Below are positions 27,428 to 60,560 of a stretch of DNA of 64,000 bases, in pieces. Source of the DNA: Thermobaculum terrenum ATCC BAA-798 (lineage in GTDB: Bacteria; Chloroflexota; Chloroflexia; Thermobaculales; Thermobaculaceae); the NCBI RefSeq assembly GCF_000025005.1, contig NC_013526.1, positions 930,001 to 994,000 of the forward strand, given 5' to 3'. A program made the position numbers and the translations under genes. Position 1 is the first letter of the stretch, and every line of letters begins with the position of its first letter. The notes below the pieces were generated by a model that was not told the DNA's origin, searched no databases, and saw only the letters and a program-made list of their open reading frames with translations.

Positions 27428-30400
27428 CTACCTGTACACGACGAAGGCGTCCACGTTCGCGCGCAGGGACCTGCCCGGCAGTGGCCGCACCTCCAACACG
27501 TGCTGCCTGCCGGGTGTCACCGAGCGCGCGAACACGATATACCTGCGAGCGGTCCGCTCCGACCTGAGGTTGACTCTGCCCACCTGGGCTCCATCTAGGA
27601 AGACTCTGGCAGTACCGTAGCTGGGACCGCGGGTAGCCACCCACGCCACCTTGCGTCCGCTGAACACGAACCTTATGCCAGCGCCCTCGGATCGCACGTT
27701 CTTGAGGCGGAGGGCGTACGCCCTCCGGTCCCTGTTGATCTCGGACGATCCCCTGATCCCCACGCGCCAGCTGCTCTCCTGGAACGCCGTGCAGGTGATG
27801 GGCCCGAGGTACTTGGTGGTGGTGTTGCCCGCCCTGTCGCGGACGATGACGCGGAAGCGATAAGTTTTGCCCGGTACCAGGGCTAGCCTGTCGCTCAGCA
27901 CGAGAGGGATCTTGAGGCCTCGCACGCGCGCCTGAGAGAGGGTCACGTAGGCCCCCCTACCCACCTTGCGCGCCACCGAGAAGTGGGCCACGCCGCTGGC
28001 GTCGTCCTGAAAGACCACGCTCAGCTTGCCCATTACTGAGTAGTCAGTCTGGCCGGAAGCAGTATTAAGGCGTACCGTCGTGCCTGTGAAGAGTGCGCCA
28101 ACGTGCCCTCTGACCTTGGGGGCTGACGTATCCAGCATCACGCTGTCCCTTGCTGAGGCGCTCACGTTACCCGCGGCGTCCCGGAACTGGGCGTACACGG
28201 TCTTGGTGCCGTTCTTGCTCGAGAGGGTCCAGGACTTGGTAGAAGCGTAGGGCTCCCAGGAGGACCAGCTGCTGCCATCGTTGCTGAAGCGCATGAGCTT
28301 GACGCCAGAAGCCGGTGATGGGTCGCTGGCCGAGATCGCCAGCTTGACGCTCCTGCTATTGACGTAGTCCGCGCCATCCGAGGTACCGTCAGGGGCTATC
28401 GTCACCGAGCCTGAGGGGCTGGTGGTGTCCAGGAGTATGTCGTCGCTCGCCACGCTCGACCAGTGGCCGTTGCCGTCGCCCCACTGCGCGTACACCTTAT
28501 GCACGCCATCTCCAGAGGCGCCCCCATAGGCCGAGTCCACCAGGGACCAGGTGACGGTCGGGGCATAGGAGACGGTCTTGCCAGCCACAAGCACCCCACC
28601 GATGGTCTCAGGCGAGTTGGATAGCCGGACAACAGCCGCCCCAGTATCGGCCAGGGCCACGCTCACCGTGGGAGAGCTCGTGTACTGAGCGCCGCCCTCG
28701 ATGCTGACGCTCCCGGCAGGCATGGTCCTGCTGCCGTCGGGCGAGGGCGTGGGGCTGCTTGTGGGGGTGGGAGTAGCCGTGGGGGAAGGCGACGGCTCCT
28801 GAGTAGGGGTGGGCGAGGGCACCGGGGGAGCGTCCCCACCTGAGCCGTACTCCACCGCTCCCAGGTCCGGAGCATCGCCGGAGTAACGCTCGGTGATGTT
28901 GGGGACCACCACGCCGGCGTCGATGAATGGTGCCCCCTGCCTCAGCGCGAGGTCCCCAGCATAGGGATCCACCAGCGCATCGTCCACCACCGAAGCGGTG
29001 ACGAAGTTGCCCGCGACGTTGGTGTGGTCCGCCCCCGTTGCCGACCTGTAGGCCGACAGGTTGGTGGTGTACCTGGTGCCGCAGAAGGCCACGCCGCGAG
29101 AGGTGTCGGTGGTGGCGAAGTGGTCGTAGTCCTCGTTCCAAGCGCTGAGGCACGGCGCGCTCCAGGCATATCGCGTCGTCCTGAAGATGTTGTTGCGTAG
29201 CCAGAAGCGCTCCGGGGAGCTGCCACCTCCCGCGAACTGAGCGCCGCCGTTGGCATCGGGCCTGCTCGTCCAGAAGGTGTTGTTCACCACCCACACCCTG
29301 GAGGGCACACTGTCCTCCCCAGAGTATTTGAAGCCCGTTACACCCACGCCCTTGCTGCCAGAGTTATCGGCGCCCACGCCATCGTTGCCCAGCTGCCATA
29401 CCTGGTTGCGGAACAAGTATATAGGGCCGTAGTTCACCGGGCCCGTGGACAGGGCCACGGAAGCGTACTCCACCCTGTTGTTCCATATCCTCCAGTTGAT
29501 CACGCTCTGTTCGGGCTCGAACGCATCGTCCGATATGTGCCTGACGAGGTTGTCATGTATATCCGTGTCCTGCATGCCGTAGCGATCGTAGTCGGCGTTG
29601 TAATCTCCCACCCCGTTGAAGTAACCATCGATCACGTTATGTCGGACCACCAACCGCTGAGCACCGCCACGTCCCCAGATGGCCGTGATCTCCATAACCT
29701 CACCTACTCGACCCCAGGCGGAGCCGAAAGGCATCTTGAGCACTCCCTTGATGAAGTTCCAGGGGACCGCGTCCTGCCCCCACAGGCCCTTGACCTCAAA
29801 GCGATTGTATTGCACGGTGTGGTCCTGCGGGTACTGAGAGGGGGTACCCTGCTCCCCTTGATATCTCAACTGGCCACCGAGCACCAGGTTGTGATCGAAA
29901 ACGCCGTTGCGTGCGGCGTCCGTGAAGAACTTGACCTCGGGTATCCTGAGCTCGAAGCCGGACAACCTGATGTCTGGGCCCGAGAAAGTCAGGGTAGTAG
30001 TGCCCAGCCAAGCCCAGTAGTTGTTGGGGTTGGCATCTCCCGGCAGGCGGAGGTAGACGTCGTCGCCAAAGCTGGTGAACCCGTAGTTGTAAGACAGGTT
30101 CTGGTACAGCACCTCGGCCCAGCCCTCAGGGGTGGACATAGAGTAACCGTTGTAGGTACCACTCTTCTTGCTCCAGTAGGCCACCAAGAAGGGCACATCC
30201 CCGGGGCGCTGAGCTATCGCCAGGTAGTCAGCCCCGCTGACCGGGGCCCCGGCCCACTTCCATACCTTGAAGGTCTTGCCGGTCACGGGACCGGTCAAGC
30301 TGACTTCCTTCCATGGTGCTGATTGCCAGGGGCCGGCACTGCCCGCTGGCAATGCCACCGCCTGTGCCGAGATGGCCGTTCTCTGCCCGGCGTTGATGGG

Positions 30401-33757: not shown

Positions 33758-33982
33758 AGACATCCCTCCATATAAGGGCCTAGATGTGGTGAGAGGCCCT
33801 ATAAACATAACTTGTAGCTCTCACGAGTATATGCCTCGTCATCAGGTGTCACAATAGGAAATTACTACTAGACCATATCGATACCCTCCCTCAACCTTTG
33901 AGTAATGCTTCTAACACTTGGAGGGGCTAGGCTATATCGATTGAACAACGGGGATTTCCTTATAGAAAAGCGGAGAGTGGGA

Positions 33983-36900
33983 ATGAAGGTCCTAAGATCC
34001 TTGATCGTAGCGCTAATAATCTTAACTAGTGGTTTGGCACCATATGTTATGTCGAGCCATTCCTACGCAGCGGGGAACAAGCCCACGGAGACCCTGGGTG
34101 TGCGTGCATCTTCACCCGCCTTGTTCTTCGGCCACAGGGGTGACCGCAGGCGCTCAGCACCGCTCGAGGAAGGCTCGGTGCTATCAGGCAAGGTCTACGT
34201 ATTTGCCCAAGCTCGCAACGTCAACAGAGCCTACTTCTTCCTCGACGTGCCCAGCCGATCGAGCGACCTGGTCCCGTGGGGAGTACGCCCCCTGCGCGTG
34301 GACGCGCGTCCTCCCTACGACCTCGTAGGCGACAACGGCAACAAAGCCTTGCCCCTGGACACGAGCAAGCTGGCCAACGGTACACACACCATCACCGCGG
34401 CGTTCGAAGGCAAGGACGGCTCGGTACAAACTATGACCAAGTCCTTTGTAGTGTACAACGGCCCGCGAGCCCTCCTGATCACACCCCAGCGGATAAGCCT
34501 GGAGCTTCCCAAGGGAGGTAAGACATCGATACCACTGAACGTGCTCTCATCAGATAACAGGCCCGTCAGATACTCCTTGAGCAAGAGCGTTGACTGGATG
34601 CGGCTTGAACCAGCATTCCCGGACCCACAGAGGCTGAGGGGGAAGGCCCCGCAGGAGAGGGTGATCTCCCTGAACGCGGGCAAGCTAGCTCCCGGCAACT
34701 ACAGGGCGACGCTGAGGGCCACCGCGCCCGGATACAGAGCTGGGGAGGTGAGTATCGAGCTAACGGTTACCAAGGGGAACGCCTCGTCCCGACAGATCAA
34801 AGCACTCCAGGCATCCACACAAGCGGTCACATCCAGCTCCAGCTGCTACCCCCTCGACTGCTCACAGATACTCGTAGAGCTGCCCTATAACCTGGACTTC
34901 AGTGGGGACGAGGGCAAGATACTGGACAAGAACGGCGTGGGCACAGGCTTCACCTACGTGGACCAGCCTAGCAAGGGCACGGGGTATATACCCCAGAACC
35001 TGACCGTAGATACCAGCGGCACGGGGACGCTCAATATCCTCACGACCAAGGGTATCAACTCCGGGACAGCCAACTCCCAGGACAATGCCCTCGGCGTGGG
35101 CATAGATGCGCCCAGCCAGATATCTGTCCTCAAGACCACCGTAATTAATCCTCCTCTTGGGAGCGGAAATTACGAGCAGGCGGGATTGTGGTTCGGCAAC
35201 AACGAGGACAACTACCTCAAGCTGGGAGTTCTGTCCACACCCAAGGGTCTGCGCATCCAGTACCTGATAGAGGTAGGCGGCACTACTCAATCCTCCAAGA
35301 CCACCAGCGCCATGAGCCTGGCGAACGCAAAGATCACGTTTACCCTGCGGGCCAACCCCGGCGACCAGACCGTGAAGGCCTACTACCAGATCAACAACAA
35401 CTCGCAGGTGCTGTTTGGCACGTTTACGGCGCCCGCTGAGTTCTTCAGCTTCGATGCTGCCGGCATCGACCCACGGATCGGTACCAGGAGCTTCGGTGGG
35501 ATATACGCCACACACCGCAAGGGGCCATCCCCACTCACCTACAAATTCGATGACTTCTCGGTAACCGCGGATGGGATCGGGAGCCCACCCGATAGCAACC
35601 TAACCTTCGATCGGGTATCCTTCCCAGTGCCCTTCCCGACATCGATGGTATGGGGGCCGGATAATCGCCTGTACGTGACGGAACTGCTTGGGAAGATACA
35701 TGCCATCACGCTGGATGACGACAAGCACGTGGTGTCAGACCAGGTAATAACCACTCTCGGTTCCAGGCTCACGCTCGGCATAACGGTAGATCCCGCCTCA
35801 ACCCCAGATAACGTGATCCTGTGGGTCTCCCACTCGAGCCCAGACTTGAACAACGGCGTGCTCAACTCGAGCATGGTGACCAAGCTCTGGGGTCCAGGGT
35901 TCACGAACAGGCAGGACGTCATCACGGGGCTACCGCGAGCCATAGCCAACCACGCGGTGAACTCGATACACTTCGGACCTGACGGTAAGCTGTACATAGC
36001 ACAGGGCGGCAACACTGGGGCTGGCGCTCCCAACACGGCCAACACCGAGTTCGGCACCAGAGCGGAGCAGCCGCTCTCGGCCGCTTTCCTCGTGGCCGAC
36101 GTGAAGGCCCCAGGGTTCGACGGCACGTGTGCCACACCAGAAAACACCTACGGGCCATCACCCTGTGATGTGTTCCTGTACTCCAGCGGGCTAAGGAACA
36201 TGTACGACTTCACGTTCCACTCCAATGGATCCATATACGGGCCCGATAACGGGCTCGGTGTGGTGGGCACCTACCCACCATCCCCCACGCCACCGTGTGA
36301 GGGGTTCGGTAACCCGCAAACGAACAACCCAGGGGAACAGCCAGATAATCTGCAGAGGCTACTACCTGGCAAGTACTATGGCCACCCCAATCCCTACAGG
36401 AACGAGTGTGTCTTCAAGGATGGCTCCTATCAAGGGGTAGCCCCACTGCCAAACTACGCCCAACCGTTCTACGTGCTGGGCAAGAACAAGTCTGCCGACG
36501 GCATCATCGAGTACAGGGGAGAAGCTTTCAACGGGGCTCTCAAAGGAGAGTTACTCATCACCAACTACTCCGTGGGAGACGATATAACCAGAGTAAGGCT
36601 GAGCTCCGATGGCCTGTCCGTCGTCGAGAAGAAGCAGCTTGCAGCGGGCTTTGATGACCCGCTACCGATCACCCAGGGACCTGACGGCACGATATATGTG
36701 GGCGAGTTCGGCGGCAGCAAGGTCACGGCCCTCATACCATCCAACCCGGGGTCATGGACCACGAGGCAGCCACTGCCCGTGTCCCTGCTGGATGCTGGAG
36801 GCACGGTCATAAACGGCAAGCTGTACGTGGTTGGAGGCAAGACCTCTTCCGGTGGCCACCAAACCAAACTGTACATCTACGATCCCATCACCGATAGTTG

Positions 36901-39271
36901 GACCACAGGCCAAGACATGCCAGGGCCAGGAGTGGAGAACCCTGGGGTAGCGGCATACAACGGCAAAATGTACGTCTTCGGAGGCTCAACAGATCCGTTC
37001 TCCGGGGCGGTAAACTTCTCGTACATGTACAACCCTAATACGAACACCTGGTCTACTATTGCGTCCATGCCCACGGCAAGAGGTGGAGCAGGAGCCCAGC
37101 AGATCAACGGCAAGATCTACGTGGTAGGTGGGATGGACTCCAACGGCGCGTCACTCGCCACCCTCGAGATCTACGACCCAGCCACCAACACCTGGAGCAC
37201 GGGCGCTCCGATGAGCACGCGGCGAGACAACCCCGGCACGGCCACGCTGGGCGGTAAGCTGTACGTCTTCGGAGGGCGCACCAGAAATGCGGACGGCAGT
37301 ACTCCCGCGAACATCCTGGCGTCAGCAGAGGTATACGACCCTGCCACAAATACATGGGCAGCCATAGCACCCATGCCCACCGCACGCAGGACGATGGTGA
37401 CGGGCATCCTCAAGGGCCGCATCCAGGTGATGGGAGGCGAGATAACGAGCACGGGCGGTGCCTTCCCACAGAACGAGGAGTACGATCCTGCTACCAACAC
37501 CTGGCTCACGCTCACGCCCATGCTCACTCCGAGGCACGGTGCTGTCGCCGGCACCATCAACAACACCATCTACGTGGCCGGTGGAGGACCCCAGGGCGGC
37601 GCGGCTTTCACCAACGTGAACGAGGCGTTCGCGTTCAACACGATCAACACTAACGTGGATACCTCCATAAATGCTGGCCCAACGGGGATCGTAGCGAACA
37701 GCTCTGCGACCTTCTCGTTCTCCAGCAACGACCCGAGTGCAACCTTCGAATGCAGACTGGACGGTGCGCCCTTTACGGCGTGCAGTTCTCCGGTGACCTT
37801 GTCAGGGCTGGCGGACGGCTCGCATACCTTCGAGGTGAGGGCCATAAGCCCAACCAATGGCACGGACCAGACTCCCGCCGGCCGCACCTGGGTCGTGGAT
37901 ACCACCAGACCACAGGTAGCAAGCACGAGTCCTGCACATGGTACCACTGACGTGCCGGTAACGACCAACGTACAGGCCGTCTTCTCGGAACCCATGGACC
38001 CCGTCACGATCAACGCCAACTCTTTCTATCTAGTCAAAGAGGGCACAACCACGCACCTGAGTGCGACCGTGAGCTACGACCAGGCCAACGCACGTGCCAC
38101 GCTTGTCCCAGCATCTAACCTGAAGGAAGGAGCTATCTACACAGCAACGATCATGGCAACCGTGAAGGACATGGCAGGCAACAGCCTGGCTGCTAACTAT
38201 AGCTGGAGCTTCACCGTTACATCGGTAGACAACACTCCGCCCGAGACGACGATCACGGCTGGGCCAACAGGTCTGACCAACCAGACTTCGGCCACATTCC
38301 AGTTCACATCCTCCGAGGACAACTCCTCCTTCCTGTGCTCCCTGGACGGCTCCCCCTTCTCCCCATGCTCATCCCCTGTGGCCTATTCTGGCCTGCAGGA
38401 TGGCAGCCACACCTTCCAGGTCAAGGCAGTGGACCAGGCAGGCAATCAGGATCCATCTCCCGCCTCTAGGGCCTGGATCATCGATGCTACCCCTCCCACC
38501 ATCACGGGTACCACGCCGGTCGATGGACCAAACGGAGTAGCGGTGCACACCAACGTGGTGATCAGCTTCTCGGAAGCCCTGGCCCCAGGCAGCGTGCAGG
38601 ATACCAGCGTCTACCTGACCAAGCAAGGAGAGACCAACAAGGTGCAGGGGACCCTATCCTACGATAACGATAGCTTCAAGGTCACTCTCGATCCGACGGC
38701 CAACCTGGAGCCGAACACGACCTACGTGGTGACGGTCAAGGGAGGCGCAGGTGGGATAACGGACGCGATAGGCAACCCGCTGGCCACCGACAGGACGTGG
38801 AGCTTCACGACGGCATCGGCCACCGCCTTTGTGCCCATACGTGTGGACTCGGGCAATACATCGAGCTACACGGACACGGGCGGCAACGTCTGGTCGGCAG
38901 ACACCGGGTACACCGGCGGGAGCGTCACGAAGGGCACCACCTCTGACATAGCTGGCACAAACGACGACAGGCTCTACCAGAAGGGCAGGAGCGGGGCACC
39001 GTTTAGCTACCGGTTCCAAGTGCCCAATGGTACATACACAGTGAGGTTGAAGTTCGCAGAGACGTACTGGACCAGAGCAGGTCAGCGGGTGTTCAACGTC
39101 AACATCGAGGGGAGCAGGGTCCTGAGCAACTTCGACATATTGCAGACAGTGGCCCCCAAGACCGCTCTGGACAGGACGTTCAAGGTGGAGGTGTCCGACG
39201 GGAGGTTGGACGTAGACCTGACAAGCGTGGTGAACTATCCATTGGTATCCGCGCTGGAGATCACTGAGTAG
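33983..39271 (+). CDS. Giant secreted protein: Ig, lectin-like, PQQ-dehydrogenase-like propeller, Kelch propeller, Ig repeats, malectin
   Basis: 1762 residues from the ATG at 33983 (GGAG upstream; a longer ORF start lacks a site). Order: signal peptide, two Ig/BACON-like domains to about 280, a concanavalin-like domain (about 300-535), a glucose/sorbosone-dehydrogenase-like propeller (about 539-922; MVWGPDNRLYVTE, FGPDGKLYIAQGG), then Kelch repeats (about 923-1222; GKLYVVGG, YDPATNTW). Next are two cycles of an Ig domain plus a Big_5 domain (about 1226-1611; FSEPMDPVTINANSFYL). A C-terminal malectin domain follows (about 1616-1762). The second Ig block shares a 278-bp near-identical repeat with the next gene. 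It is probably a surface carbohydrate-binding protein; enzymatic activity of the first propeller is unproven. Confidence 0.87.
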   Translation: MKVLRSLIVALIILTSGLAPYVMSSHSYAAGNKPTETLGVRASSPALFFGHRGDRRRSAPLEEGSVLSGKVYVFAQARNVNRAYFFLDVPSRSSDLVPWGVRPLRVDARPPYDLVGDNGNKALPLDTSKLANGTHTITAAFEGKDGSVQTMTKSFVVYNGPRALLITPQRISLELPKGGKTSIPLNVLSSDNRPVRYSLSKSVDWMRLEPAFPDPQRLRGKAPQERVISLNAGKLAPGNYRATLRATAPGYRAGEVSIELTVTKGNASSRQIKALQASTQAVTSSSSCYPLDCSQILVELPYNLDFSGDEGKILDKNGVGTGFTYVDQPSKGTGYIPQNLTVDTSGTGTLNILTTKGINSGTANSQDNALGVGIDAPSQISVLKTTVINPPLGSGNYEQAGLWFGNNEDNYLKLGVLSTPKGLRIQYLIEVGGTTQSSKTTSAMSLANAKITFTLRANPGDQTVKAYYQINNNSQVLFGTFTAPAEFFSFDAAGIDPRIGTRSFGGIYATHRKGPSPLTYKFDDFSVTADGIGSPPDSNLTFDRVSFPVPFPTSMVWGPDNRLYVTELLGKIHAITLDDDKHVVSDQVITTLGSRLTLGITVDPASTPDNVILWVSHSSPDLNNGVLNSSMVTKLWGPGFTNRQDVITGLPRAIANHAVNSIHFGPDGKLYIAQGGNTGAGAPNTANTEFGTRAEQPLSAAFLVADVKAPGFDGTCATPENTYGPSPCDVFLYSSGLRNMYDFTFHSNGSIYGPDNGLGVVGTYPPSPTPPCEGFGNPQTNNPGEQPDNLQRLLPGKYYGHPNPYRNECVFKDGSYQGVAPLPNYAQPFYVLGKNKSADGIIEYRGEAFNGALKGELLITNYSVGDDITRVRLSSDGLSVVEKKQLAAGFDDPLPITQGPDGTIYVGEFGGSKVTALIPSNPGSWTTRQPLPVSLLDAGGTVINGKLYVVGGKTSSGGHQTKLYIYDPITDSWTTGQDMPGPGVENPGVAAYNGKMYVFGGSTDPFSGAVNFSYMYNPNTNTWSTIASMPTARGGAGAQQINGKIYVVGGMDSNGASLATLEIYDPATNTWSTGAPMSTRRDNPGTATLGGKLYVFGGRTRNADGSTPANILASAEVYDPATNTWAAIAPMPTARRTMVTGILKGRIQVMGGEITSTGGAFPQNEEYDPATNTWLTLTPMLTPRHGAVAGTINNTIYVAGGGPQGGAAFTNVNEAFAFNTINTNVDTSINAGPTGIVANSSATFSFSSNDPSATFECRLDGAPFTACSSPVTLSGLADGSHTFEVRAISPTNGTDQTPAGRTWVVDTTRPQVASTSPAHGTTDVPVTTNVQAVFSEPMDPVTINANSFYLVKEGTTTHLSATVSYDQANARATLVPASNLKEGAIYTATIMATVKDMAGNSLAANYSWSFTVTSVDNTPPETTITAGPTGLTNQTSATFQFTSSEDNSSFLCSLDGSPFSPCSSPVAYSGLQDGSHTFQVKAVDQAGNQDPSPASRAWIIDATPPTITGTTPVDGPNGVAVHTNVVISFSEALAPGSVQDTSVYLTKQGETNKVQGTLSYDNDSFKVTLDPTANLEPNTTYVVTVKGGAGGITDAIGNPLATDRTWSFTTASATAFVPIRVDSGNTSSYTDTGGNVWSADTGYTGGSVTKGTTSDIAGTNDDRLYQKGRSGAPFSYRFQVPNGTYTVRLKFAETYWTRAGQRVFNVNIEGSRVLSNFDILQTVAPKTALDRTFKVEVSDGRLDVDLTSVVNYPLVSALEITE
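38240..38517 (+). repeat. 278-bp direct repeat, copy 1
   Basis: This segment, from CCCGAGACGACG to ACCACGCC, recurs at 41221-41498 with about 10 differences in 278 positions by eye. It encodes an Ig-like domain and the first strand of the following Big_5 domain. The flanking domains are clearly more diverged. Confidence 0.9.
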
Positions 39272-50280: not shown

Positions 50281-53097
50281 CTACCGCTTCTCCAGGGCGC
50301 CTATATCGGGCGCACTTCCCAGATAGGTCCTGCCCCGCAGGTCAGAGATGTTGGGGACGGGAACCCCGGCGTCGACCAGGGGGGAATCATCCGGGAGAGA
50401 GAGGTCGCCCCTTGGGGCTCCCGGGATGTCTGGCAGCTGGATGAAGCTGCCCGAGAGGTTGGTGTGTTCCCCCTGACCGCTGTCCCGCCTGTAGGCGCCC
50501 ACATCCTTCGTGTACCGGTTGCCTCCGTACCCCAGCCCCCGAGTGGTATCGGTGGTCGCGAAGTAGTCGTAGTCCTCGTTCCACTTCCCGGTCTGCTCAT
50601 GCTCTCCGTAGTACTCGTCCGGCGACCAGATCGCTCCCAATGCATCCTTGTGAGGGCTCTCGCTACCGGCATCTATCCTGATCACCCTGCCGCCCTCACC
50701 GATAGCTTCCAGACCCGACAGGAGGGCGTTGTCCACCAGGCTCTTGAAAGTTATGTCGAGCGACTTATCCTTCACCTCGGTCTCAAAGCTGCGGTCGACT
50801 GCCGTCAGGGGTCCCGCTACCTGCGCTATGTCGAAGCGGTGCAGCACCCGTTCCCCTTCCAGGTACACGTCGAAGAGCCTCTGCCCGGGCTCTGAGTGGA
50901 AGGTCTCGGCGAACTTCAGCACCACCTTGTACTCGCCGTTGGGCACTGGGATGTGGTAGTCGAAATCCCCGTACCTCCCTTGCTGATAGATCTCGTCGTC
51001 CCGCGTGCCCTTGATATCGCTCGTGGTGCCCTTGGTGATCTTGCCCGCCATGGAGGTGCTGGAGTTGCCGGGCGCCGAGAAGGCGTACCTGGTGGCCACG
51101 AACAGGTTGTTGCGCAGCCAGAAGTGCTCCTGGCTGCCCCCGCCGCTTCCGAACTGGGCCCCACCGTTGGCCTCCGGCCTGTTCGTCCAAAAGGTGTTGT
51201 GCACCACGTATATCAGGCCCGGACCGGAGCTGGTGCCGGAGTACTTGAACCCCGTGACGCCGACCCCCTTGTTGCCGGTGAGGTCGGCCCCCACGCCATC
51301 GTTGCCCAGCTGCCACACCTGGTTACGGAAGAAGTAGGCCGGGCCATCGCTCAGCGGAGCTGTGGAGAGCGCCACCGAGGCGTGCTCTATCCTGTTGCGC
51401 CAAGCCTTGAAGTTGATGGATGGCCCGTCGATCTCGATCGCATCGTCCGCTATCTGGGAGATGAGGTTATCGTGGACGTCCTGGTTGTAGCCGGCGTAGC
51501 GGTCGTAGTCCTTCTGGTAGCCGGGGGAGACGCCGTTAAAGTAGCCCCTGATGGTGTTGTACCGGACGACCAGGGCATTGGCGCCACCCCTCCCCCACAC
51601 GGCGGTCGTCTCGGCCTCGGCCCCTATCCTGCTCCAACTACTCTTGCCGTCCCTGAGCAGCAGGGCCCCCTTGATGAAGGGCCAGGGGATGGCGGGCATC
51701 GAGGGATCGTCGGACCAGGTGCCCTGGTCCTCGAAGAGGTTACGCTCGACCACGTGGTGAGTGGGATACCTGTAGCGAGGCTTCTGAGCCGCTCGGTAGA
51801 CCACGCTGGCGCCCTGGAACAGGTTGTGATCCACCATGCCGTGGTCGGCGTTGGGGTCGAACACCACATCGGAGAGCCTGACCTCGAACCCTGACAGGTG
51901 CACGTTGTCGGCATCGAACACCGTGTCGCCATTGAGCTCGCCCGTGGAGCCCTTGAGCCACACATACTGCGTGTTAGGGTCCACGTCGCCGGGCAACCGC
52001 AGGTAGACGTCACTCCCGAAGGCCGCGAACCCGTAGTTGTAAGAGCGGTTGGTGTAGAGGATCTCCGTCCAGCCCTCAGGAGCCTCCATCGTGAAGCCCT
52101 CGGAGGCGCCGTCCTTGATATCCCACTTGGCCACCCGGCGCAGGGGGGAGTCGCGCGAGGGGGCAAAGGCCATCTGGACCACGCCCTCCACCGGCGCGCC
52201 CTTCCAGGCCCATATGGAGAATGACTGCCCGGTCGCGGGGCCTTTAAGGGTCACTCTGCGCCAGGGGGCCTCATGCTCACCCCCGCTCCCTCGGGGGAAG
52301 GCTATCACCGCGGGCTCTATGATCGCGCGCTTGCCCTCGTTGATCGGATTGCGGTCATCGTCCACCGCGGGATACTGCGCCACAAGCGTCAGGGGCTTGT
52401 CCCTCTCCACAGCCGGAGGGGCGTACGATCCGGGCCCCACCTGCACCACAGCTCCTGGTGGGGCGTCCTCGAAGGCCTTCTCCAGGGTGCGCCAGGCGGA
52501 GGTGGGCGATCGGCCATCGGCCTCGTCGCTGCCGTCGGCGCGCACGAAGTAGGTCGGCCTGAGGTCCGCGGGCGCAGGGTTGTCCTCCGGCCAGGTGGTC
52601 ACCTCCTGAGAGACGACCGCCCGCCCCACCACCCCGTCGGGGTCCTCCACGGAAGCCTTGATCTCGTACTTGGTCCCGGGGGCCAGCAGGAGGATGGATC
52701 CATAGAAAGCCTCACCCTGCACGCGCCAGGGGGGCAGGGCATCCCGCCAAGGCGAGTCGCCGCTCCGGAACTGCAGCTGCACACGCGCGTTGCCGTCGGC
52801 ATCCCCATCAAAAGGCAGCTCCACCGCCACGCTGTTGTAGGTGGGCTGGAGCCTCATCCCCTGCAACCGGATGGAGCCTGTGGAGCTGCTAGATGAAGGC
52901 CCCCCGGAGGGTGTGGGGGTGGGCAGAGGCTGGGCAGCGGTCGGGGTAGCTGCCGCCTGCGTGCTCGCCCGTACCGTGGGCGTGGGGCGGCTGCGAGGTT
53001 CCCCGTGCCTGCCCAGCGAACATCCCGTCAGGGCCAATACAAGGCCCAGCACCAGGATCGCGAGCAAGCGGAACCCTCGTGGGCGATAGTAGCTCAA
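50281..53097 (-). CDS. Beta-helix lipoprotein with inserted, circularly permuted malectin-like domain
   Basis: 938 residues from TTG at 53097, 7 nt after AGGAGG. The N-terminus (FRLLAILVLGLVLALTGC) is a lipobox. A fibronectin-like region and the DUF1565 start YFVRADGSDEADGRS lead into a long parallel beta-helix, paralogous to the protein at 27428. At about residues 680-836 a malectin-like domain interrupts the helix. Its C-terminal part (KITKGTTSDIKGTRDDEIYQ through LLSGLEAIGEGG) comes before its N-terminal part (VIRIDAGSESPHKDALG, WSPDEYYGE), the reverse of the normal order. The helix then resumes with WNEDYDYFATTDTTRG. It is probably cell-surface carbohydrate binding or processing; it closes the polysaccharide cluster. 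Confidence 0.87.
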   Translation of the reverse strand: MSYYRPRGFRLLAILVLGLVLALTGCSLGRHGEPRSRPTPTVRASTQAAATPTAAQPLPTPTPSGGPSSSSSTGSIRLQGMRLQPTYNSVAVELPFDGDADGNARVQLQFRSGDSPWRDALPPWRVQGEAFYGSILLLAPGTKYEIKASVEDPDGVVGRAVVSQEVTTWPEDNPAPADLRPTYFVRADGSDEADGRSPTSAWRTLEKAFEDAPPGAVVQVGPGSYAPPAVERDKPLTLVAQYPAVDDDRNPINEGKRAIIEPAVIAFPRGSGGEHEAPWRRVTLKGPATGQSFSIWAWKGAPVEGVVQMAFAPSRDSPLRRVAKWDIKDGASEGFTMEAPEGWTEILYTNRSYNYGFAAFGSDVYLRLPGDVDPNTQYVWLKGSTGELNGDTVFDADNVHLSGFEVRLSDVVFDPNADHGMVDHNLFQGASVVYRAAQKPRYRYPTHHVVERNLFEDQGTWSDDPSMPAIPWPFIKGALLLRDGKSSWSRIGAEAETTAVWGRGGANALVVRYNTIRGYFNGVSPGYQKDYDRYAGYNQDVHDNLISQIADDAIEIDGPSINFKAWRNRIEHASVALSTAPLSDGPAYFFRNQVWQLGNDGVGADLTGNKGVGVTGFKYSGTSSGPGLIYVVHNTFWTNRPEANGGAQFGSGGGSQEHFWLRNNLFVATRYAFSAPGNSSTSMAGKITKGTTSDIKGTRDDEIYQQGRYGDFDYHIPVPNGEYKVVLKFAETFHSEPGQRLFDVYLEGERVLHRFDIAQVAGPLTAVDRSFETEVKDKSLDITFKSLVDNALLSGLEAIGEGGRVIRIDAGSESPHKDALGAIWSPDEYYGEHEQTGKWNEDYDYFATTDTTRGLGYGGNRYTKDVGAYRRDSGQGEHTNLSGSFIQLPDIPGAPRGDLSLPDDSPLVDAGVPVPNISDLRGRTYLGSAPDIGALEKR

Positions 53098-53231: not shown

Positions 53232-54413
53232 TCAGGGAGAGGCTCCCTCATGGCCTGGCCCGCGCCTGAGGCAGCTGTACCCTATGACCAGTGGCCAGGC
53301 GAGCCCCCGGGCAAGGCCCAGCAGCGCGCCGCCAGCGCCTCCTCCGCCGGCACACAGGTAGGTGCGGTAGGCCCTCAGGACCCTGCCCGCGGGCTGCAGC
53401 ATGAGGCAGTAGGCCAGGCGAAACTGGTTGGCTCGGAGGTTGTCCACGGCTGGAGGTCGCAGGACCCATAGGGGCCCCGCGAGCCCGCGCACCACCGCCC
53501 TCCTGAAAGTCCCCGGAGACAGGGAGCGCGTGACCCCGTCCGGCACGGGCGTACCCAGGAGTTCCCTGGCATGGGACAGGGCGAAGAACAGGAGGGTCTG
53601 GGCTCGCCAGCGCCGGGCTATGCGCTCCACCAGCTGCCAGTCGGGACGCTCCTGCCTGACCAGCCGGTCGATATCCACCAGCAGCCTGAGGAGCCCCGTG
53701 TCGTGCTTTGGCAGGTGCAACGCCAGGAAGACGAGCAGCTCCTCCGATGGCAGGCTCATCTCGCCGCGAGGCTCGCGGGTCTGCTGGGCCCTCGCCCACA
53801 GTCTCTCCAGGTCCACGGGCACGAAGCTTGGGTCTGTGAGGTTCCAGTGCAGCTCCACCACATGTCCGCCGTGTGCCGATGCCCTGGCTAGCGGCACACC
53901 GTGGAAGGGATGCGAGAGCTGGCCAGGCCTGGGTTCTCCGAGAGGAGAGTATCCCATGGCGCGCAGGATCTCGCAGGCCCTCTCCCTGTCCCCCGGCTTC
54001 ACCAGGAGGTCTATATCCCCGCACCTGCGGGCATCCAGCCCCGGGTAGAGCCGCCTGAGCAGGCTCACGCCCTTGAGCGGGATCACCGCCACCCCCTCAT
54101 CCTGCAGCGCTCGCTCTATCCTGTCCAGCTCGGCGGCCGCGGACATGTTGGCCATCATCACCAGCAGCCTGCGCTCCTGGATGTTGGACAGCACCTCCGG
54201 GGGCGCGCAGGCTCTCACCGCGCTCCACAGCGGGCTGTACGGCAGGACCGGGACCACATCCTGGCTGTGGGCTATGGCGAGCAGGCGCGGCCAGTCGAAA
54301 GGCTGCGACAGCAGGTGGGCTGCCTGCTCATCGGCCCGGCTGCCGGGCTCGGCGCTGGCCAGCAGGAGCAGCAGGCGCTCCTCGGGGGTCAACTTGTAGG
54401 AGTCAGCTGGCAT
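53232..54413 (-). CDS. Nucleotidyltransferase-family protein (NTP_transf_5 type)
   Basis: 393 residues. EGVAVIPLKGVSLLRRLYP and RRCGDIDLLVKPGDRERAC carry the fold and the DxD motif of the uncharacterised nucleotidyltransferase family common in surface-polysaccharide loci. GHVVELHWNLTDPSFVP and LVFLALHLPKHDTGLLRLLVDI follow as usual. The start at 54413 overlaps the end of the glycosyltransferase gene by 11 bp, so translation is coupled. The role of the family is not settled; the context suggests transfer or modification of a polysaccharide residue. Confidence 0.83.
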   Translation of the reverse strand: MPADSYKLTPEERLLLLLASAEPGSRADEQAAHLLSQPFDWPRLLAIAHSQDVVPVLPYSPLWSAVRACAPPEVLSNIQERRLLVMMANMSAAAELDRIERALQDEGVAVIPLKGVSLLRRLYPGLDARRCGDIDLLVKPGDRERACEILRAMGYSPLGEPRPGQLSHPFHGVPLARASAHGGHVVELHWNLTDPSFVPVDLERLWARAQQTREPRGEMSLPSEELLVFLALHLPKHDTGLLRLLVDIDRLVRQERPDWQLVERIARRWRAQTLLFFALSHARELLGTPVPDGVTRSLSPGTFRRAVVRGLAGPLWVLRPPAVDNLRANQFRLAYCLMLQPAGRVLRAYRTYLCAGGGGAGGALLGLARGLAWPLVIGYSCLRRGPGHEGASP

Positions 54414-55617
54414 CGACCTCCCTCGCCACGTCCAGGGCCGGGGCGCTCTCACTACCCGCCAGCAGCCCCTCGTACACGCCCAGGTAGACCTTCTTCTGCT
54501 CCGACCATCTGTAGCGGGCATATAGCTCAGAAGCCCGCTTGACCATGCTCGCCCTGCGCTCGGGGTCACGATGCAGCCCCACCAGCACCCGGGCCAGATC
54601 CTGGGGATCGCCGGGTCGGAAGTACGCCACAGCACCCTCCGGGAAGTAGCGCTCGAAGGTCTCCCAGCGGGATATCACGACCGGCACGCCCAGCGCCACG
54701 TACTCCATCAGCTTGTTGGGCAGCACGAGGTCGTTCAGCATGCCCACGTACCCCACATCGGCCGTCGCCAACGTGGACAGCAGCTCTTCCAGCTCGACGA
54801 AGCCGCGGAAGATAACCCTGCCCTCCAGCCCCAGCCCGGCCACCTGCTCCCGCAGGCGGTGCTCGTACTCCCCCTTGCCAAAGATCTGGAGCTCGGCGTT
54901 CGGCACGCTCTCCAGGAAGATGGGCAACGCATCGATCAGGGTCTGGATGCCGTACCTCTCCAGGATGGAACCATGGGTCACGATACGAAAGACGTCCCGG
55001 TCCTTCCTCGCGGCCTCGGGAGGCTTGAACACCGCATCGTCGGCGGAGTTCAGCACGACCGTGAGCCTGGAGGGGTCGGCTCCCCGCGAGAGCGCCAGCC
55101 TCCTGGGCAGCTCCTGGGTAACTATCACCTGATCCGCGAGCTTGTAGGTCACGCTCTCCAGGGCCCCGAGCGCCCGCACCACCGGGTGGTCGGCGGGCAG
55201 TCCCTTCAGGTAAGCCAGCAACTCGGGCATGTTGTCGAACACGTAGAACACGATCGGCGTGCCGGTGAGCTTGGGCACGAGCGCGGTGAAGATCAGGATG
55301 TCGGGCATGTTGTCCACCTCGACCACGTCGAACCCCTTGATGAGGTGCAGCCAAGACACCTGCAGGAAGGCCAGCAGCGCGAACGAGGTGTACTCCCATA
55401 AGTAGCGCAGGGGAGAGCCCCTACGGTGCTCGACCGGCATGCGGAGCACCCGCACCCCGTTGATCTCCTCCCTGGCCGGCTGCCCCTTGCGTCGGAGGAC
55501 TATGACCGTCACCTCATACCCGGCCTGGGCCAGGGCCTCAGCATCCCTGCGCACGTGCGTGTCGGGATAGTAGTTGTGGCGCACTATGCAGATCGACCTG
55601 CGAGCTCTACCTCTCAT
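54403..55617 (-). CDS. GT4-family glycosyltransferase
   Basis: 404 residues. A GT-B fold: N-terminal Rossmann half (ICIVRHNYYPDTHVRRDAEALA), middle VVEVDNMPDILIF, and a C-terminal half with THGSILERYG, LQIFGKGEYEHRLRE and PNKLMEYVALGVPVVISRWE, the donor-binding E-x7-E-like region of family 4. The ATG at 55617 follows GAGAGGTATCC. It overlaps the upstream gene's end by 11 bp. The sugar donor cannot be deduced. Confidence 0.88.
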   Translation of the reverse strand: MRGRARRSICIVRHNYYPDTHVRRDAEALAQAGYEVTVIVLRRKGQPAREEINGVRVLRMPVEHRRGSPLRYLWEYTSFALLAFLQVSWLHLIKGFDVVEVDNMPDILIFTALVPKLTGTPIVFYVFDNMPELLAYLKGLPADHPVVRALGALESVTYKLADQVIVTQELPRRLALSRGADPSRLTVVLNSADDAVFKPPEAARKDRDVFRIVTHGSILERYGIQTLIDALPIFLESVPNAELQIFGKGEYEHRLREQVAGLGLEGRVIFRGFVELEELLSTLATADVGYVGMLNDLVLPNKLMEYVALGVPVVISRWETFERYFPEGAVAYFRPGDPQDLARVLVGLHRDPERRASMVKRASELYARYRWSEQKKVYLGVYEGLLAGSESAPALDVAREVDAS

Positions 55618-56584
55618 GTACTGGATACCTCTCAACGGTTTCTCTCACGCCCAGGGCGTGCCTGTACACCTGCAGCACCTGCAGGGCCACGTGCTCCCGC
55701 GACAGGTGCCCTATGTGCTCCCTGCCATTGGTACGCCTTGGACTTACGAGCACCTTCACCAGCGCATCCGCTATGAGCTGCGGGTCGCGCTCCACCAGGT
55801 AGCAGCCCTCGGTCCCGCTGACCACCTCGGGCACGTCTCCGACCCTCACGGAGACCACTGGCAGGTTGCACGCCATCGCCTCCTTGACGACCATGGGGGA
55901 GCCCTCCAGGTCTGAGGTGAGCACCAGCGCATCGCAGGCGTTCATGTAGATCGGCACCAGATCGTGGGGCTTGCCGGTGAGCAGCACGAGCTCGGCCTCC
56001 GGCAGGTAGGTCTTGACGTGCTCCATGGACCTCTCCACGAGGTCGAACCTCTTCTCGGGGCGCCAGTAGTCCCCGGCCCACAGCACGAGCGGCACACCCT
56101 GTGGCAGGCCCGCACGCTCCCGCGCCTCGCTCCTGGGCATGGGGTGGAAGACCTTCAGGTCCACGCCACAGGGGATGACCCACCCGTCCGCGTCCCCAAG
56201 GGTGCTCCTCACCTCCTCGGTAACGTGGATGACCTCATCGAAGAGCGGCGTCATGATCCTGCACAGCGGCGCCTGCCAGGGGGGTTGACCCAGCACCTCC
56301 GGACCGTGGTGGGTGAGCACCACCTTGTATCCCCACTGCGCGCGGGCCACCACGCCTGCCAGGACGTAGTGCGCGTGGATGAGATCGTATCTGCGCCGCA
56401 GCAGCCTGTACCAGAACCTGGGGAAAGCCCACAGGTAATTCCAGGTGCTCTTGCGCCCGTTGAAGTACAGGACGTCCACGTCCACGCCCAGTTCCCTGAG
56501 CGACTCCACCTGGTCGTGCACGAAGGTGCCGAAGGAGGGCATGTCCTCCGTGGGGTACATGTTGGTCACCACCAGCACTCTCAT
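55607..56584 (-). CDS. GT4-family glycosyltransferase
   Basis: 325 residues. MRVLVVTNMYPTEDMPSFG is the classical start of a GT4 enzyme, followed by LIHAHYVLAGVVA, VLTHHGPEVLG, and the C-terminal ALVLTSDLEGSPMVVKEAMA with the E-x7-E donor-site acid pair. GGAGGAGGAA precedes the ATG at 56584, which overlaps the upstream stop by 4 bp. It is a member of the same cluster as the other two GT4 genes. Confidence 0.9.
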   Translation of the reverse strand: MRVLVVTNMYPTEDMPSFGTFVHDQVESLRELGVDVDVLYFNGRKSTWNYLWAFPRFWYRLLRRRYDLIHAHYVLAGVVARAQWGYKVVLTHHGPEVLGQPPWQAPLCRIMTPLFDEVIHVTEEVRSTLGDADGWVIPCGVDLKVFHPMPRSEARERAGLPQGVPLVLWAGDYWRPEKRFDLVERSMEHVKTYLPEAELVLLTGKPHDLVPIYMNACDALVLTSDLEGSPMVVKEAMACNLPVVSVRVGDVPEVVSGTEGCYLVERDPQLIADALVKVLVSPRRTNGREHIGHLSREHVALQVLQVYRHALGVRETVERYPVHER

Positions 56585-58392
56585 CGAGCATTCCTCCTCC
56601 GCCACACTGGGTCGGGCACGTTCCTCTGACTGGGGTTGGATACGAACAGGGCGTTGAGCCAGGTCTCGAACCTGCCCATGTAGATCTGGAAAGCCTCCCG
56701 GATGATGGGATCGTTCAGGTCGGCGAAATCCCCGCGGCCCGGCACTACCCGCAGGCCGAACCTGTCCGCCAGCTCCAGATACAGCCGGCGCTCCGCATCC
56801 AGCTCGCTGTGCCAGGGTTCTTCGGGCTTACGTGCCCGGGCATCGGAGGGTTCCAGGTCGAGCAGGTAGCCCAGATCAGGCCTGGGGACGACCCTGAGCA
56901 TGAAGGCGATCGCGGCCCTGGTCATGCGGTCCTCCTTGGGCAGGGAGGCGAGCACCTCCACGGCAGCATCGTAGATGTAGCGATCGCACACCACTATCTT
57001 GCCAGTCCTGGCCCGCAGGTGCACGCCCACCAGGTAGCTGAGTACCTGGTCCAGCGCCACCCCCCAGGTCCACCCCCATCTAAGCAGCGGGTGGGCCAGC
57101 TCCCTGCGCCTGCGGAGCACGGCGTCCGGGTTGGAGGCGCGCCGATTCCTGCGGAGCAGCGCCCTGGCCCGGGAGGCCAGGGCCAGCAGGCCGGTGGAAC
57201 CTCCCCGGCACCAGAAGTACCTGGCCTGCAGCTCGCACAGGGAGAACGCCTCGGCCAGAGCCCTGGCGTGGGCCGTCTTGCCGGAGCCATCGATCCCGCT
57301 GAAGCTGACCACCATCCCCGCCTGTGGCCTTATGCCGGACTTCAGCTTGAGTCCCCACAGGAGCGTGAGCAGGGTGTCTCCGACCTTCTCCCTGGGGGAG
57401 CGTTCGAGATCGGACATTATCTTGCCGTAGTACAGCACCTTGCAGAACGGGTAGGAGAGATCCAGGGGCAGATCGACGCTCGCCGAGGACCTGATCGCCT
57501 CCAGCCGCCTCCAGACGAGCGGGCGCGCCCGTGCTACCTGCTCGAACCGCTCGAGCTGGCCAGGGGGCACCAAGCTGTGACCGAACATGGCGTGCTCCAC
57601 CCAGGAGGACACCAGTAGCATGAAGGCCAGGCCTTCCTTCCAGCCGCGGCGGCCCGCCACGTCCAGCATGTAGCCCCAGTCGATCTGAGGCGCGGACTCG
57701 AGGGCGTGCCGCACCCTCATCACATCCACCAGGCGCAGCTCCTTGTTCTCGTAACAGGCGTGGGCCAGGTTGATCAGGATGGCGTCCTCGGGGGAAGGCA
57801 CGTTCACGCCGGGATCATCCGTCGTGGGCCTCATCCTCTCCCAGACGAGGGCGTCATCGAGGAAGCCCACGAACCAGGCTATGCGCTCGTGCACGTGTAT
57901 GGCCGAGACGCACCTGCCGTCGTGAAACCTGCGGAATAGGTACTTGCCGGGCTCCTCGACGTTGCGCACCTCCACGTACCCCATCTGCCTGAGCACCTCT
58001 CGGGCGACGTAGGCCTCCTCCGGCCTGAACAGGACGTCTATGTTGTCGCTGGTGTGCGGGAAGGACGGGTAGCTACCGGCCGACTTGATCATCAGGCAGC
58101 TGACGCCCCGCTCCAGCCAGGCGAGGCGCGCGAGCTCGAACTCCCCGCGCTGGGTATCGTACCAGGCCCTCTCCTCACAGAGGGCATCCAGGAAGTCGGG
58201 ATCCTCGCGCAACCAGCTGGGGGCACGGTGGGACAGGGCCAGCAGCGGGTACTTGTTCCTGCGCAGCCACCGCACCAGGGGCTGCACCGAGAGATCATCC
58301 GGGGGTGGGGCCAGCTCTCCGTGGGCGTGCAGGCTGGCGAACACCTCCAGCTCTCTCGATAGCTTGCTGCTCGGGAGGGTCAGCGCGATCAT
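56581..58392 (-). CDS. Fusion of nucleotidyltransferase-like and thymidylate-kinase-like domains
   Basis: 603 residues. The first about 360 residues resemble the NTP_transf_5 nucleotidyltransferase-like family (CLMIKSAGSYPSFPHTSDNI, VLFRPEEAYVAREVLRQMGY, EDAILINLAHACYENKELRL). From about residue 364 a P-loop kinase domain begins with VSFSGIDGSGKTAHARALA, and VVCDRYIYDAAVEVLA supplies the DRY-type motif of thymidylate kinases. The LID-like Arg segment is at SDARARKPEEPWHSELDAE. The fusion suggests a nucleotide- or sugar-phosphate kinase joined to a transferase serving the polysaccharide. It abuts the epimerase gene upstream with no gap. Confidence 0.82.
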   Translation of the reverse strand: MIALTLPSSKLSRELEVFASLHAHGELAPPPDDLSVQPLVRWLRRNKYPLLALSHRAPSWLREDPDFLDALCEERAWYDTQRGEFELARLAWLERGVSCLMIKSAGSYPSFPHTSDNIDVLFRPEEAYVAREVLRQMGYVEVRNVEEPGKYLFRRFHDGRCVSAIHVHERIAWFVGFLDDALVWERMRPTTDDPGVNVPSPEDAILINLAHACYENKELRLVDVMRVRHALESAPQIDWGYMLDVAGRRGWKEGLAFMLLVSSWVEHAMFGHSLVPPGQLERFEQVARARPLVWRRLEAIRSSASVDLPLDLSYPFCKVLYYGKIMSDLERSPREKVGDTLLTLLWGLKLKSGIRPQAGMVVSFSGIDGSGKTAHARALAEAFSLCELQARYFWCRGGSTGLLALASRARALLRRNRRASNPDAVLRRRRELAHPLLRWGWTWGVALDQVLSYLVGVHLRARTGKIVVCDRYIYDAAVEVLASLPKEDRMTRAAIAFMLRVVPRPDLGYLLDLEPSDARARKPEEPWHSELDAERRLYLELADRFGLRVVPGRGDFADLNDPIIREAFQIYMGRFETWLNALFVSNPSQRNVPDPVWRRRNAR

Positions 58393-59442
58393 CTAGACGA
58401 CCTCCAGGGGGGAGGCATGGCGCCGCCTTGCGGCCTCGAGCACCCTCCTAAAGCCCTCTTCAAGGCTGATGGAGGGAGCCCAGCCCAACAGCTGCCTTGC
58501 CCGGGACGGGTCGGCGTAGCGCGCCTGCACCCCCACGGGCTTGTCCACCAGGGGCTTGATCTCGGGCTCGTAGCCTTCCAGGCGCGCGAACATCGCGGCA
58601 ACCTCCAGGAAAGTGGTGAGCTTGCCGGAGCCTATGTTCACCGCGCTGCCGTCGCTTATGACCTCCACGGCCCTGAGCATGGCCTCCACGCAGTCATCGA
58701 TGTGCACGAAGTCCCTGCCCTGTTGGCCGGAGCCCCACACGGTCAGTGGATCCTCCCTGCGGGCTGCCCTCGCGGCGATGGCGGGCACAGGGTAGGACTC
58801 ATCCTGATCCTCGCCGTACCCCGAGAACGGCCTGACGCAGGCCACATGCAGGCCGTACTTCTGGGCTGCGATCCTGGCGAGGTACTCACCCGTGAGCTTG
58901 GCCCAGCCATAGGTCATGTCGGGCATGCCCAGGCGCCCCCGCTCGAAGTCGATCATGTCCTCCCTCAGGGCCACGTGCCCCTCGCTCTCCTGCAGGTCTA
59001 CAGGGTAGGCCGCGCTCGAGCTGGCGTACAGCACCCGATCGGGATTGGCCCTTATCGCCCAGTTGAAGAACTCGGCGTCTATGGAGAGGTCGGTGGCCAC
59101 CGCGAGCGGGTCTCCATCTATCTTCATCCTGCCTCCCACCACGGCGGCCAGATGGCACACCAGGTTAAAGGGAGGCAGCATACGGGCATCGATCGCTGCC
59201 CTCAGCACCTGTCGGACATCGCCCGGGATGAAGGTCAAGCTGGCACCGCCCGGACAGACGTAGGTCGCAGCGCCATCGGTCCGACGGATCGTGCGCACCG
59301 CCGGGACCCACCCTTCCGGAGGCTTGCCCGTGGAGGTGTTATCGATCACCCACACATCCCATCCCTCAGCTAGCAGCCGGCTTACCACGTGCCGGCCCAC
59401 GAACCCACAGCCACCTGTGACCAACGCGGTTCCACCGCTCAT
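58393..59442 (-). CDS. NAD-dependent sugar epimerase/dehydratase
   Basis: 349 residues from ATG 59442, 10 nt after AGGAGG. Extended SDR: cofactor loop TGGCGFVGRHV, VCHLAAVVGG, and the catalytic MTYGWAKLTGE (YxxxK). GRDFVHIDDCVEAM and SAVNIGSGK follow. This pattern is shared by GDP-mannose 3,5-epimerase-like, UDP-glucose 4-epimerase and related enzymes, and the exact activity is uncertain. It overlaps the upstream GT4 gene by 4 bp and is part of the sugar nucleotide arm of the polysaccharide cluster. Confidence 0.88.
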   Translation of the reverse strand: MSGGTALVTGGCGFVGRHVVSRLLAEGWDVWVIDNTSTGKPPEGWVPAVRTIRRTDGAATYVCPGGASLTFIPGDVRQVLRAAIDARMLPPFNLVCHLAAVVGGRMKIDGDPLAVATDLSIDAEFFNWAIRANPDRVLYASSSAAYPVDLQESEGHVALREDMIDFERGRLGMPDMTYGWAKLTGEYLARIAAQKYGLHVACVRPFSGYGEDQDESYPVPAIAARAARREDPLTVWGSGQQGRDFVHIDDCVEAMLRAVEVISDGSAVNIGSGKLTTFLEVAAMFARLEGYEPEIKPLVDKPVGVQARYADPSRARQLLGWAPSISLEEGFRRVLEAARRRHASPLEVV

Positions 59443-60560
59443 GCTTCTCTCACCTCCTGCAATGCTTGCCCTGATCGATTTTGAACGCCTGCCTCGGCGC
59501 CCCGGTGCAGGCAGCGCTCCAGCAACATCTCCGCTATGCGGGACCAAGAGTACCTGTCCACCAGCGCCCTGTTGCCCCCCGGCCTCTCGGCCGCGAGCTG
59601 GATCGTCGCCTGCAGCAGCTCCTCCCTGGAGCTGCAGAACCTCAGTGCCTGGTGGGGGCCTTCGCCGAACAGCTCCACCAGGCCGCCGAACTTGGTGGTG
59701 GCCACGGGCAGGTCGCACGACATGGCCTCCAGCACCGACAGCGGCACCTCTATAGCGTTGTCCGTCGACTCCACGGGGAAGAGGTAGCAGTCGGCCATCT
59801 GGTAGAGGCTCTCGACCCGAGGCACGTAGTCCCTTATCAGCTTTACGCCCGCCGCCTCCAGCTCCCTGCCCAGCTCATCGTCCTGGGCCATGCTGGAGCT
59901 GACCACCAGCACCGCCTGCAACCCCCGGCGCGCCAGATCCCCGAGCACCTCCACCCTTCTTCCCCTCACCAGGTGGCCCACGTGGAGCACGACCGGCCTG
60001 GACGCGTCCAGGCCGTAGATGCCCCTTAGCTCCGACCTGGCAGGCTCCGGCAGGGGGGCGAAGGTGTGGGTGTCGATGCCGCTGGGCAGCAGCATGCAAT
60101 CGAGTCCCAGCCCCTCGAGATAGATCTTGTTGGGTTGCGATTGGGCGCAAAGCGGCCCCGGCGCCAGCAGCCTGAGCACCGGTCGCTGCCATGGTCTGTG
60201 GTACCTGGTCTGCAGGGCGAGCATCGCTACCCTGGCCCGGGGGCTGTAGGTCTGCAGCAACCTGGCCCTGAGTATCGAGAAGAAGGTGGCCGATCCCCTG
60301 GCAGCGTACAGGATGAGGTCGGGCCCGAAGGCAGCCAGCTCCCTCCGCAGTCGATAGCTCAGGAAGGTCTTGCTCGTGGGCACAAGCCGCACTCCCGGCA
60401 GCTGGACGGGACCCTTCGTGGATATCACCCTGATCTCGGTCATCTCCGCCAGCGCCCTGCTGATCTCCCAGGTGAACTTCTTCACGCCCTCGTCCGGTGG
60501 GCCGGACAGATCCTCGCTGATCACGCACACCTTGGGCTTGCCTGTGTTAGTTACGGTCAA
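59439..60560 (-). CDS. GT4-family glycosyltransferase
   Basis: 373 residues from a TTG start behind GGGAGG; no ATG or GTG fits as well. VCVISEDLSGPPDEGVKKFT and EMTEIRVISTKGP open the N-terminal Rossmann half; the C-terminal half carries VVLHVGHLVRGRRVEVL and AIEVPLSVLEAMSCDLPVAT, a GT4 donor-site pattern with the acidic pair. It is the first gene of the minus-strand operon, and its 196-bp upstream region faces the oppositely oriented GT2 gene. Confidence 0.86.
   Translation of the reverse strand: MTVTNTGKPKVCVISEDLSGPPDEGVKKFTWEISRALAEMTEIRVISTKGPVQLPGVRLVPTSKTFLSYRLRRELAAFGPDLILYAARGSATFFSILRARLLQTYSPRARVAMLALQTRYHRPWQRPVLRLLAPGPLCAQSQPNKIYLEGLGLDCMLLPSGIDTHTFAPLPEPARSELRGIYGLDASRPVVLHVGHLVRGRRVEVLGDLARRGLQAVLVVSSSMAQDDELGRELEAAGVKLIRDYVPRVESLYQMADCYLFPVESTDNAIEVPLSVLEAMSCDLPVATTKFGGLVELFGEGPHQALRFCSSREELLQATIQLAAERPGGNRALVDRYSWSRIAEMLLERCLHRGAEAGVQNRSGQALQEVREA

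Follow-up and report, generated by a model that had tools for sequence, protein, structure and literature searches.

The N- and C-terminal strands of native malectin are neighbours in the fold. CBM36 and CBM60, two families of calcium-dependent carbohydrate-binding modules, are reportedly linked by circular permutation (Montanier et al. 2010, J Biol Chem, cited in PMC4444583). The domain described here resembles this pair in being a naturally permuted carbohydrate-binding module, but CBM36 and CBM60 are other CBM families, whereas permuted malectin is found in loops of several hosts that are unrelated to one another. With malectin itself (PF11721; CBM57; Xenopus/human structures 2k46 and 9ikp) it has in common the core fold, the conserved motifs and part of the ligand residues; its N-terminal strand and loop, however, come after the core, and the domain lies inside a loop of another protein. 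Proteins with tandem malectin or malectin-like (PF12819) domains show the same core-linker-N order over each repeat junction and are the probable raw material; in these, however, an N part goes with the core that comes after it, whereas the permuted form has a single core and a single N part. Permuted domains inserted by engineering, as in domain-insertion biosensors (the field of PMC6335823), likewise have both ends side by side, whereas the permuted malectins are natural and occur in secreted carbohydrate-active proteins. We found nothing on permuted malectins in the full texts searched, a collection from which most subscription papers are absent.

The host lipoprotein and its insert

The window, i.e. 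the whole stretch of Thermobaculum terrenum DNA that was analysed (64,000 nucleotides), contains a lipoprotein gene, P0001, with the following layout.

50281..53097, minus strand: host lipoprotein gene P0001, 938 aa; TTG start at 53097, stop at 50281
53020..53097, minus strand: lipoprotein signal peptide, ending at Cys26, from reading the sequence
51064..53019, minus strand: host part preceding the insert, ending in FSAPGN; 54% identity to the paralog P0002 (aa 70-677)
50584..51063, minus strand: insert, a circularly permuted malectin of about 160 residues (aa 679-838), from the empty site in relatives and the swap tests
50701..51042, minus strand: malectin core (aa 686-799), Pfam positions 41-145; pLDDT mostly 81-94
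50689..50700, minus strand: GEGG linker between the former C- and N-termini (aa 800-803), from the sequence; short linkers also occur in other permuted domains
50602..50688, minus strand: N-terminal strand plus loop of malectin (RVIRIDAG..WSPDEYYGE), moved to the C-terminal end of the domain (aa 804-832), from the N-part profile
50281..50583, minus strand: host part after the insert, from WNEDYDYF to the C-terminus; 53% identity to P0002 (aa 838-936)
27428-31033, minus strand: paralog gene P0002, without malectin at the site
29144..29149, minus strand: empty site in P0002 (AWSAP..WNEDYDHF), placed by the ends of two tblastn pieces and accurate to a few codons

An AGGAGG sequence lies 7 nt upstream of the TTG start, and the lipobox reads LALTGC. 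The host part preceding the insert has a beta-sandwich-like N-terminal region followed by a putative beta-helix. DUF1565 scored above the Pfam cut-off in the paralog P0002 and below threshold in P0001, and a choice-of-anchor-Q match at the C-terminus of P0001 was also sub-threshold. The DUF1565 match of the paralog, the choice-of-anchor-Q match and the look of the sequence suggest that the host is of the beta-helix type. The AlphaFold2 model of full-length P0001 was unusable for want of homologs (mean pLDDT 37.6), so the beta-helix and the orientation of the insert are putative. A search with P0001 for related loci in genome contigs and viral contigs found none, and there was no close relative of the host in the other genomes of the class (158 genomes).

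When the protein is read from its N-terminus, KITKGTTSD (aa 686, nt 51042) comes first and is followed by the rest of the core, GLEAI, GEGG, RVIRIDAG (aa 804), WSPDEYYGE (aa 824-832) and the host motif WNEDYDYF (aa 839). The preliminary description, according to which the C-terminal part of the domain is encoded before the N-terminal part, was right as to protein order, with the correction that the gene lies on the minus strand. Its short GEGGR linker joining the old ends was also found, as GEGG at aa 800-803.

The insert sits between FSAPG and WNEDYDYF. Four relatives of the host, namely P0002 and three proteins from one other Chloroflexota genome (L066, L067 and L068), have an empty site at this position and run directly from SAP to W(N/D)ED, as in RYAFSAPTGSG-RWDEDYNAF; the insert takes the place of a short host loop only. 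The proposal that a whole domain had been inserted, made from the paralog at 27428 that is without it, was thus confirmed by four empty-site relatives. The permuted domain was not found in this host from a second genome, and the same-family copy (G295) ends at a contig edge before the site. That a single genome has the insert in this host would fit an assembly or annotation artefact, but such an error is very improbable here: the frame is unbroken, both flanks continue the paralog alignment in frame, the genome is nearly complete (two contigs, 3,101,581 bases), and the same arrangement recurs in independent assemblies.

Thus the order of core, linker and N strand, the precise empty site and the better fit after swapping (see below) can all be read in the sequence, and we estimate at roughly 0.8 the probability that the insert of P0001 is a complete malectin (CBM57-type), circularly permuted and inserted in one surface loop of a beta-helix-type lipoprotein.

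Swap tests, predicted fold and ligand positions

Pfam Malectin (PF11721) matched P0001 with 96.5 bits against a curated cut-off of 23. In the swap test with this profile, the native order gave 101.5 bits over positions 41-145, with no full-length match that included the N-terminal strand, and the swapped order gave 109.9 bits over positions 2-145. Against solved malectins, the swapped sequence reached 45.9 bits and aligned from the N-terminus, whereas the native protein reached 37.8 bits with the core only; part of this gain is a length correction, since the query lengths differ. With a native-only model (144 positions, built from 88 native-order malectins), the score of P0001 rose from 127.3 bits (positions 34-142) to 146.1 bits (positions 2-142) on swapping. 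This gain of 18.8 bits is well beyond that of 46 native malectins in which whatever sequence trails the core had been moved in front, as these controls gained 0.8-10.0 bits (median 3.3). The corresponding gains of 37 permuted domains were 4.5-27.5 bits. A first local malectin model with a truncated N end, with which swapping had raised the score by only 2.5 bits and the rotation curve was flat, was replaced by the full native-only model. Swapped order therefore outscored native order on Pfam Malectin, on the solved malectins and on the native-only model, which is the comparison on which the preliminary description had staked its reading. With a profile made from native N parts, the N segment of P0001 scored 21.4 bits, and none of 5000 shuffles exceeded 12.2; apart from the two malectins no segment of P0001-P0003 reached 20 bits with this profile. 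The domain of P0001 is a permuted member of the malectins, not a classical one.

The second of these malectins is the nearest relative of the permuted core.

38828..39268, plus strand: native-order malectin at the C-terminus of a giant protein, Pfam positions 3-142

It is 54% identical to the permuted core, and its N part comes first, in agreement with the normal order that had been ascribed to it. The giant protein (33905-39271, plus strand; 1788 aa, secreted) has a glucose/sorbosone dehydrogenase-like part, a Kelch propeller and two Big_5 domains besides its C-terminal native malectin. Directly after it, 39286-42222 (plus strand) encodes a purple-acid-phosphatase-like metallophosphoesterase with BACON-like, Big_5 and C-terminal PA14 domains.

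An AlphaFold2 model of the insert, for which ten relatives were supplied (eight with a permuted N part), had a mean pLDDT of 73.3 and a pTM of 0.70, and the core was mostly at 81-94. RVIRI(D) was modelled as a strand forming a hairpin directly after the old C-terminal strand; pLDDT fell below 50 at about aa 814 and stayed there for the remainder, WSPDEYYGE included. Foldseek returned malectins and malectin domains as the top PDB matches of this model, with human malectin 9ikp at TM 0.59, rmsd 2.2 and E 1e-8; as its alignments are sequential, this result alone is no proof that the permuted strand is in place. The structure prediction that had been proposed as a check thus supports one malectin-like fold in which the former N strand is predicted to form a hairpin after the former C strand, with an uncertain tail.

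The low confidence of the N-part tail might also be expected if the insert were the wreckage of a tandem malectin pair, decayed to the first core and the second N part, with an N part that has ceased to pack against the core. Malectins in tandem are frequent in this phylum, and across each junction they too have the order core-linker-N. However, there is no trace of a first N part ahead of the core or of a second core behind the N part, only a short host loop was replaced, the N strand is modelled as a strand directly behind the one that was formerly C-terminal, and 37 further domains share the core-N arrangement with their N motif intact. We therefore regard such decay as improbable and keep to the reading of an intact permuted domain.

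The residues of Xenopus malectin that bind di-glucose are Y67, Y89, Y116, F117 and D186 (PMC7783096). In P0001, Y709 corresponds to Y89 by alignment and D789 lies at D186 by eye, Phe733 and His734 stand at Y116 and F117, and the region of Y67 is the cut loop. The domain is a putative sugar binder; the change of F117 to His could mean that binding is altered or lost.

Permuted malectins in other hosts and phyla

Malectins were present in 41 of 400 Chloroflexota genomes, and only that of P0001 lacked an N part ahead of its core within a complete frame. The other late-starting malectins of the phylum were contig-end or damaged fragments, or were short of the first residues only; the partial malectins L069, L072 and L049 were set aside as such fragments (contig ends or damaged frames).

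A core was called permuted if an N part followed it, none preceded it and no further core came after. By this rule, the 236 malectin cores in the fetched loci comprised 38 permuted, 152 native and 46 assignable to neither order; 38 of 236 is not a frequency, because the loci were chosen partly for late Pfam starts. All 38 permuted domains have their cut at one and the same loop, and the old ends are connected by short linkers, of which many read EGxGx. The rarity that the preliminary description had supposed was not borne out, as these cores are spread across phyla (among them Bacteroidota, Planctomycetota, Hydrogenedentota and Verrucomicrobiota/Lentisphaerota) and unrelated hosts. Its suggested search for the same order elsewhere succeeded in other proteins, with these 38 cores, and gave no second genome for the lipoprotein host. 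The permuted form has been missed in annotation because profile tools show it as truncated malectins (positions ~41-145). Malectin domains were also seen on predicted viral contigs of IMG/VR (L074-L083), four of them in a row in L078.

The second host family is GH10 xylanases of Bacteroidota, with two complete examples and a third (L110) cut off by its contig.

L115:2665-5037: GH10 xylanase whose inserted permuted malectin comes directly behind the HEFPFGIAFD / HEYPFGIAFD motif
L095:2710-5640: GH10 xylanase, its permuted malectin likewise inserted directly behind the HEFPFGIAFD / HEYPFGIAFD motif

When its malectin was removed, L115 aligned nearly unbroken to the solved GH10 xylanase 7d88, with the insertion site after HEFPFGIAFD, near the first barrel strand. 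By this alignment 7d88 is clearly an empty-site relative of known structure for the GH10 family.

Further hosts are GH2 enzymes (L097, L181, L183), DUF6797 proteins (L130, L213, L214), a PQQ beta-propeller protein (L190) and a large unnamed family of Planctomycetota and Hydrogenedentota, of which four members from Hydrogenedentota (L102, L103, L165, L169) carry two permuted copies each. For L102 and the relatives tested, no Pfam or NCBIfam match other than malectin was found, and DUF4838 was dropped as an identity of this family on that ground. In two Planctomycetota proteins (L188:731-1621 and L192:894-1502) the permuted malectin is C-terminal and its N part forms the last ~25 residues; insertion is thus not obligatory for the permuted form.

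Origins and possible role

Trees were built on the cores only, as a quick tree of 132 rows and a careful tree of 46 rows, the latter picked after the first tree had been inspected. The quick tree required 6 changes of order (shuffled mean, 34), and the careful tree also required 6, at least 4 of them forced by strong branches. The core of P0001 was sister to its own genome's native malectin with support of 98/86, and the other hosts formed groups of their own.

The identical cut loop in every permuted domain would also be expected if the permutation had arisen once elsewhere, e.g. in the large unnamed family, and the permuted domain had later passed to the P0001 host and others. With 132 rows, placing all permuted rows in one clade was not rejected (p-AU 0.265), nor was holding P0001 with the GH10 group (p-AU 0.124). 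Against this, one clade was rejected with the 46 rows (p-AU 0.001), and both the forced changes of order and the position of P0001 beside its own genome's native malectin argue for separate events. A single origin is therefore unlikely, if less so than decay of a tandem pair, and several independent permutations of malectin are favoured, though not proven. Our tentative wider reading is that malectin may have been permuted several independent times, always at the same ligand-side loop, and that the permuted form may serve for insertion in mid-domain (GH10 barrel, beta-helix, propeller), in a convergent switch from a terminal domain to a loop-mounted one facing its host.

The starting point for P0001 would be a malectin resembling that of the neighbouring giant protein. 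If this malectin was duplicated and the pair then lost its first N part and its last core, the permuted order would result; alternatively, a segment of core and N part may have been captured from a tandem array. As the N and C strands are adjacent, a short GEGG turn can link them. The new ends would lie in the variable loop between N part and core, the site of the ligand residue Tyr67 in Xenopus malectin, and since this loop is on the ligand side, the domain would hang by two neighbouring stalks beside the ligand-binding rim. The sugar site would then be held against the host's own surface instead of at the end of a linker. Other malectin hosts probably arrived at this solution independently, and in enzymes the permuted malectin may keep the sugar chain beside the catalytic domain.

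In the window, P0001 is the last gene of a same-strand run comprising an NTP_transf_5 gene, two GT4 genes, an NTP_transf_5-like gene, an epimerase gene and a glycosyltransferase gene.

53232-60560, minus strand: exopolysaccharide-type cluster with two NTP_transf_5 proteins, GT4 glycosyltransferases and an epimerase; the gene order is partly conserved in a same-family genome (L073)

One NTP_transf_5 protein of the cluster has a weak thymidylate-kinase-like stretch. The order host/NTP_transf_5/GT/GT is kept in the same-family genome G295, and this conservation together with the position of P0001 at the cluster makes a link to exopolysaccharide plausible. The lipoprotein may accordingly hold a polysaccharide to the host protein at the cell surface, perhaps the product of the adjacent glycosyltransferase cluster.

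A natural precedent for permuted carbohydrate-binding modules exists in CBM36/CBM60. The main interest lies in the recurrence of the permutation at one loop. If the convergence holds, circular permutation would be tied to domain insertion, and the permuted malectins would reveal the loop at which a carbohydrate-binding module tolerates opening and attachment to a host loop, a help in constructing loop-mounted binding modules for enzymes.
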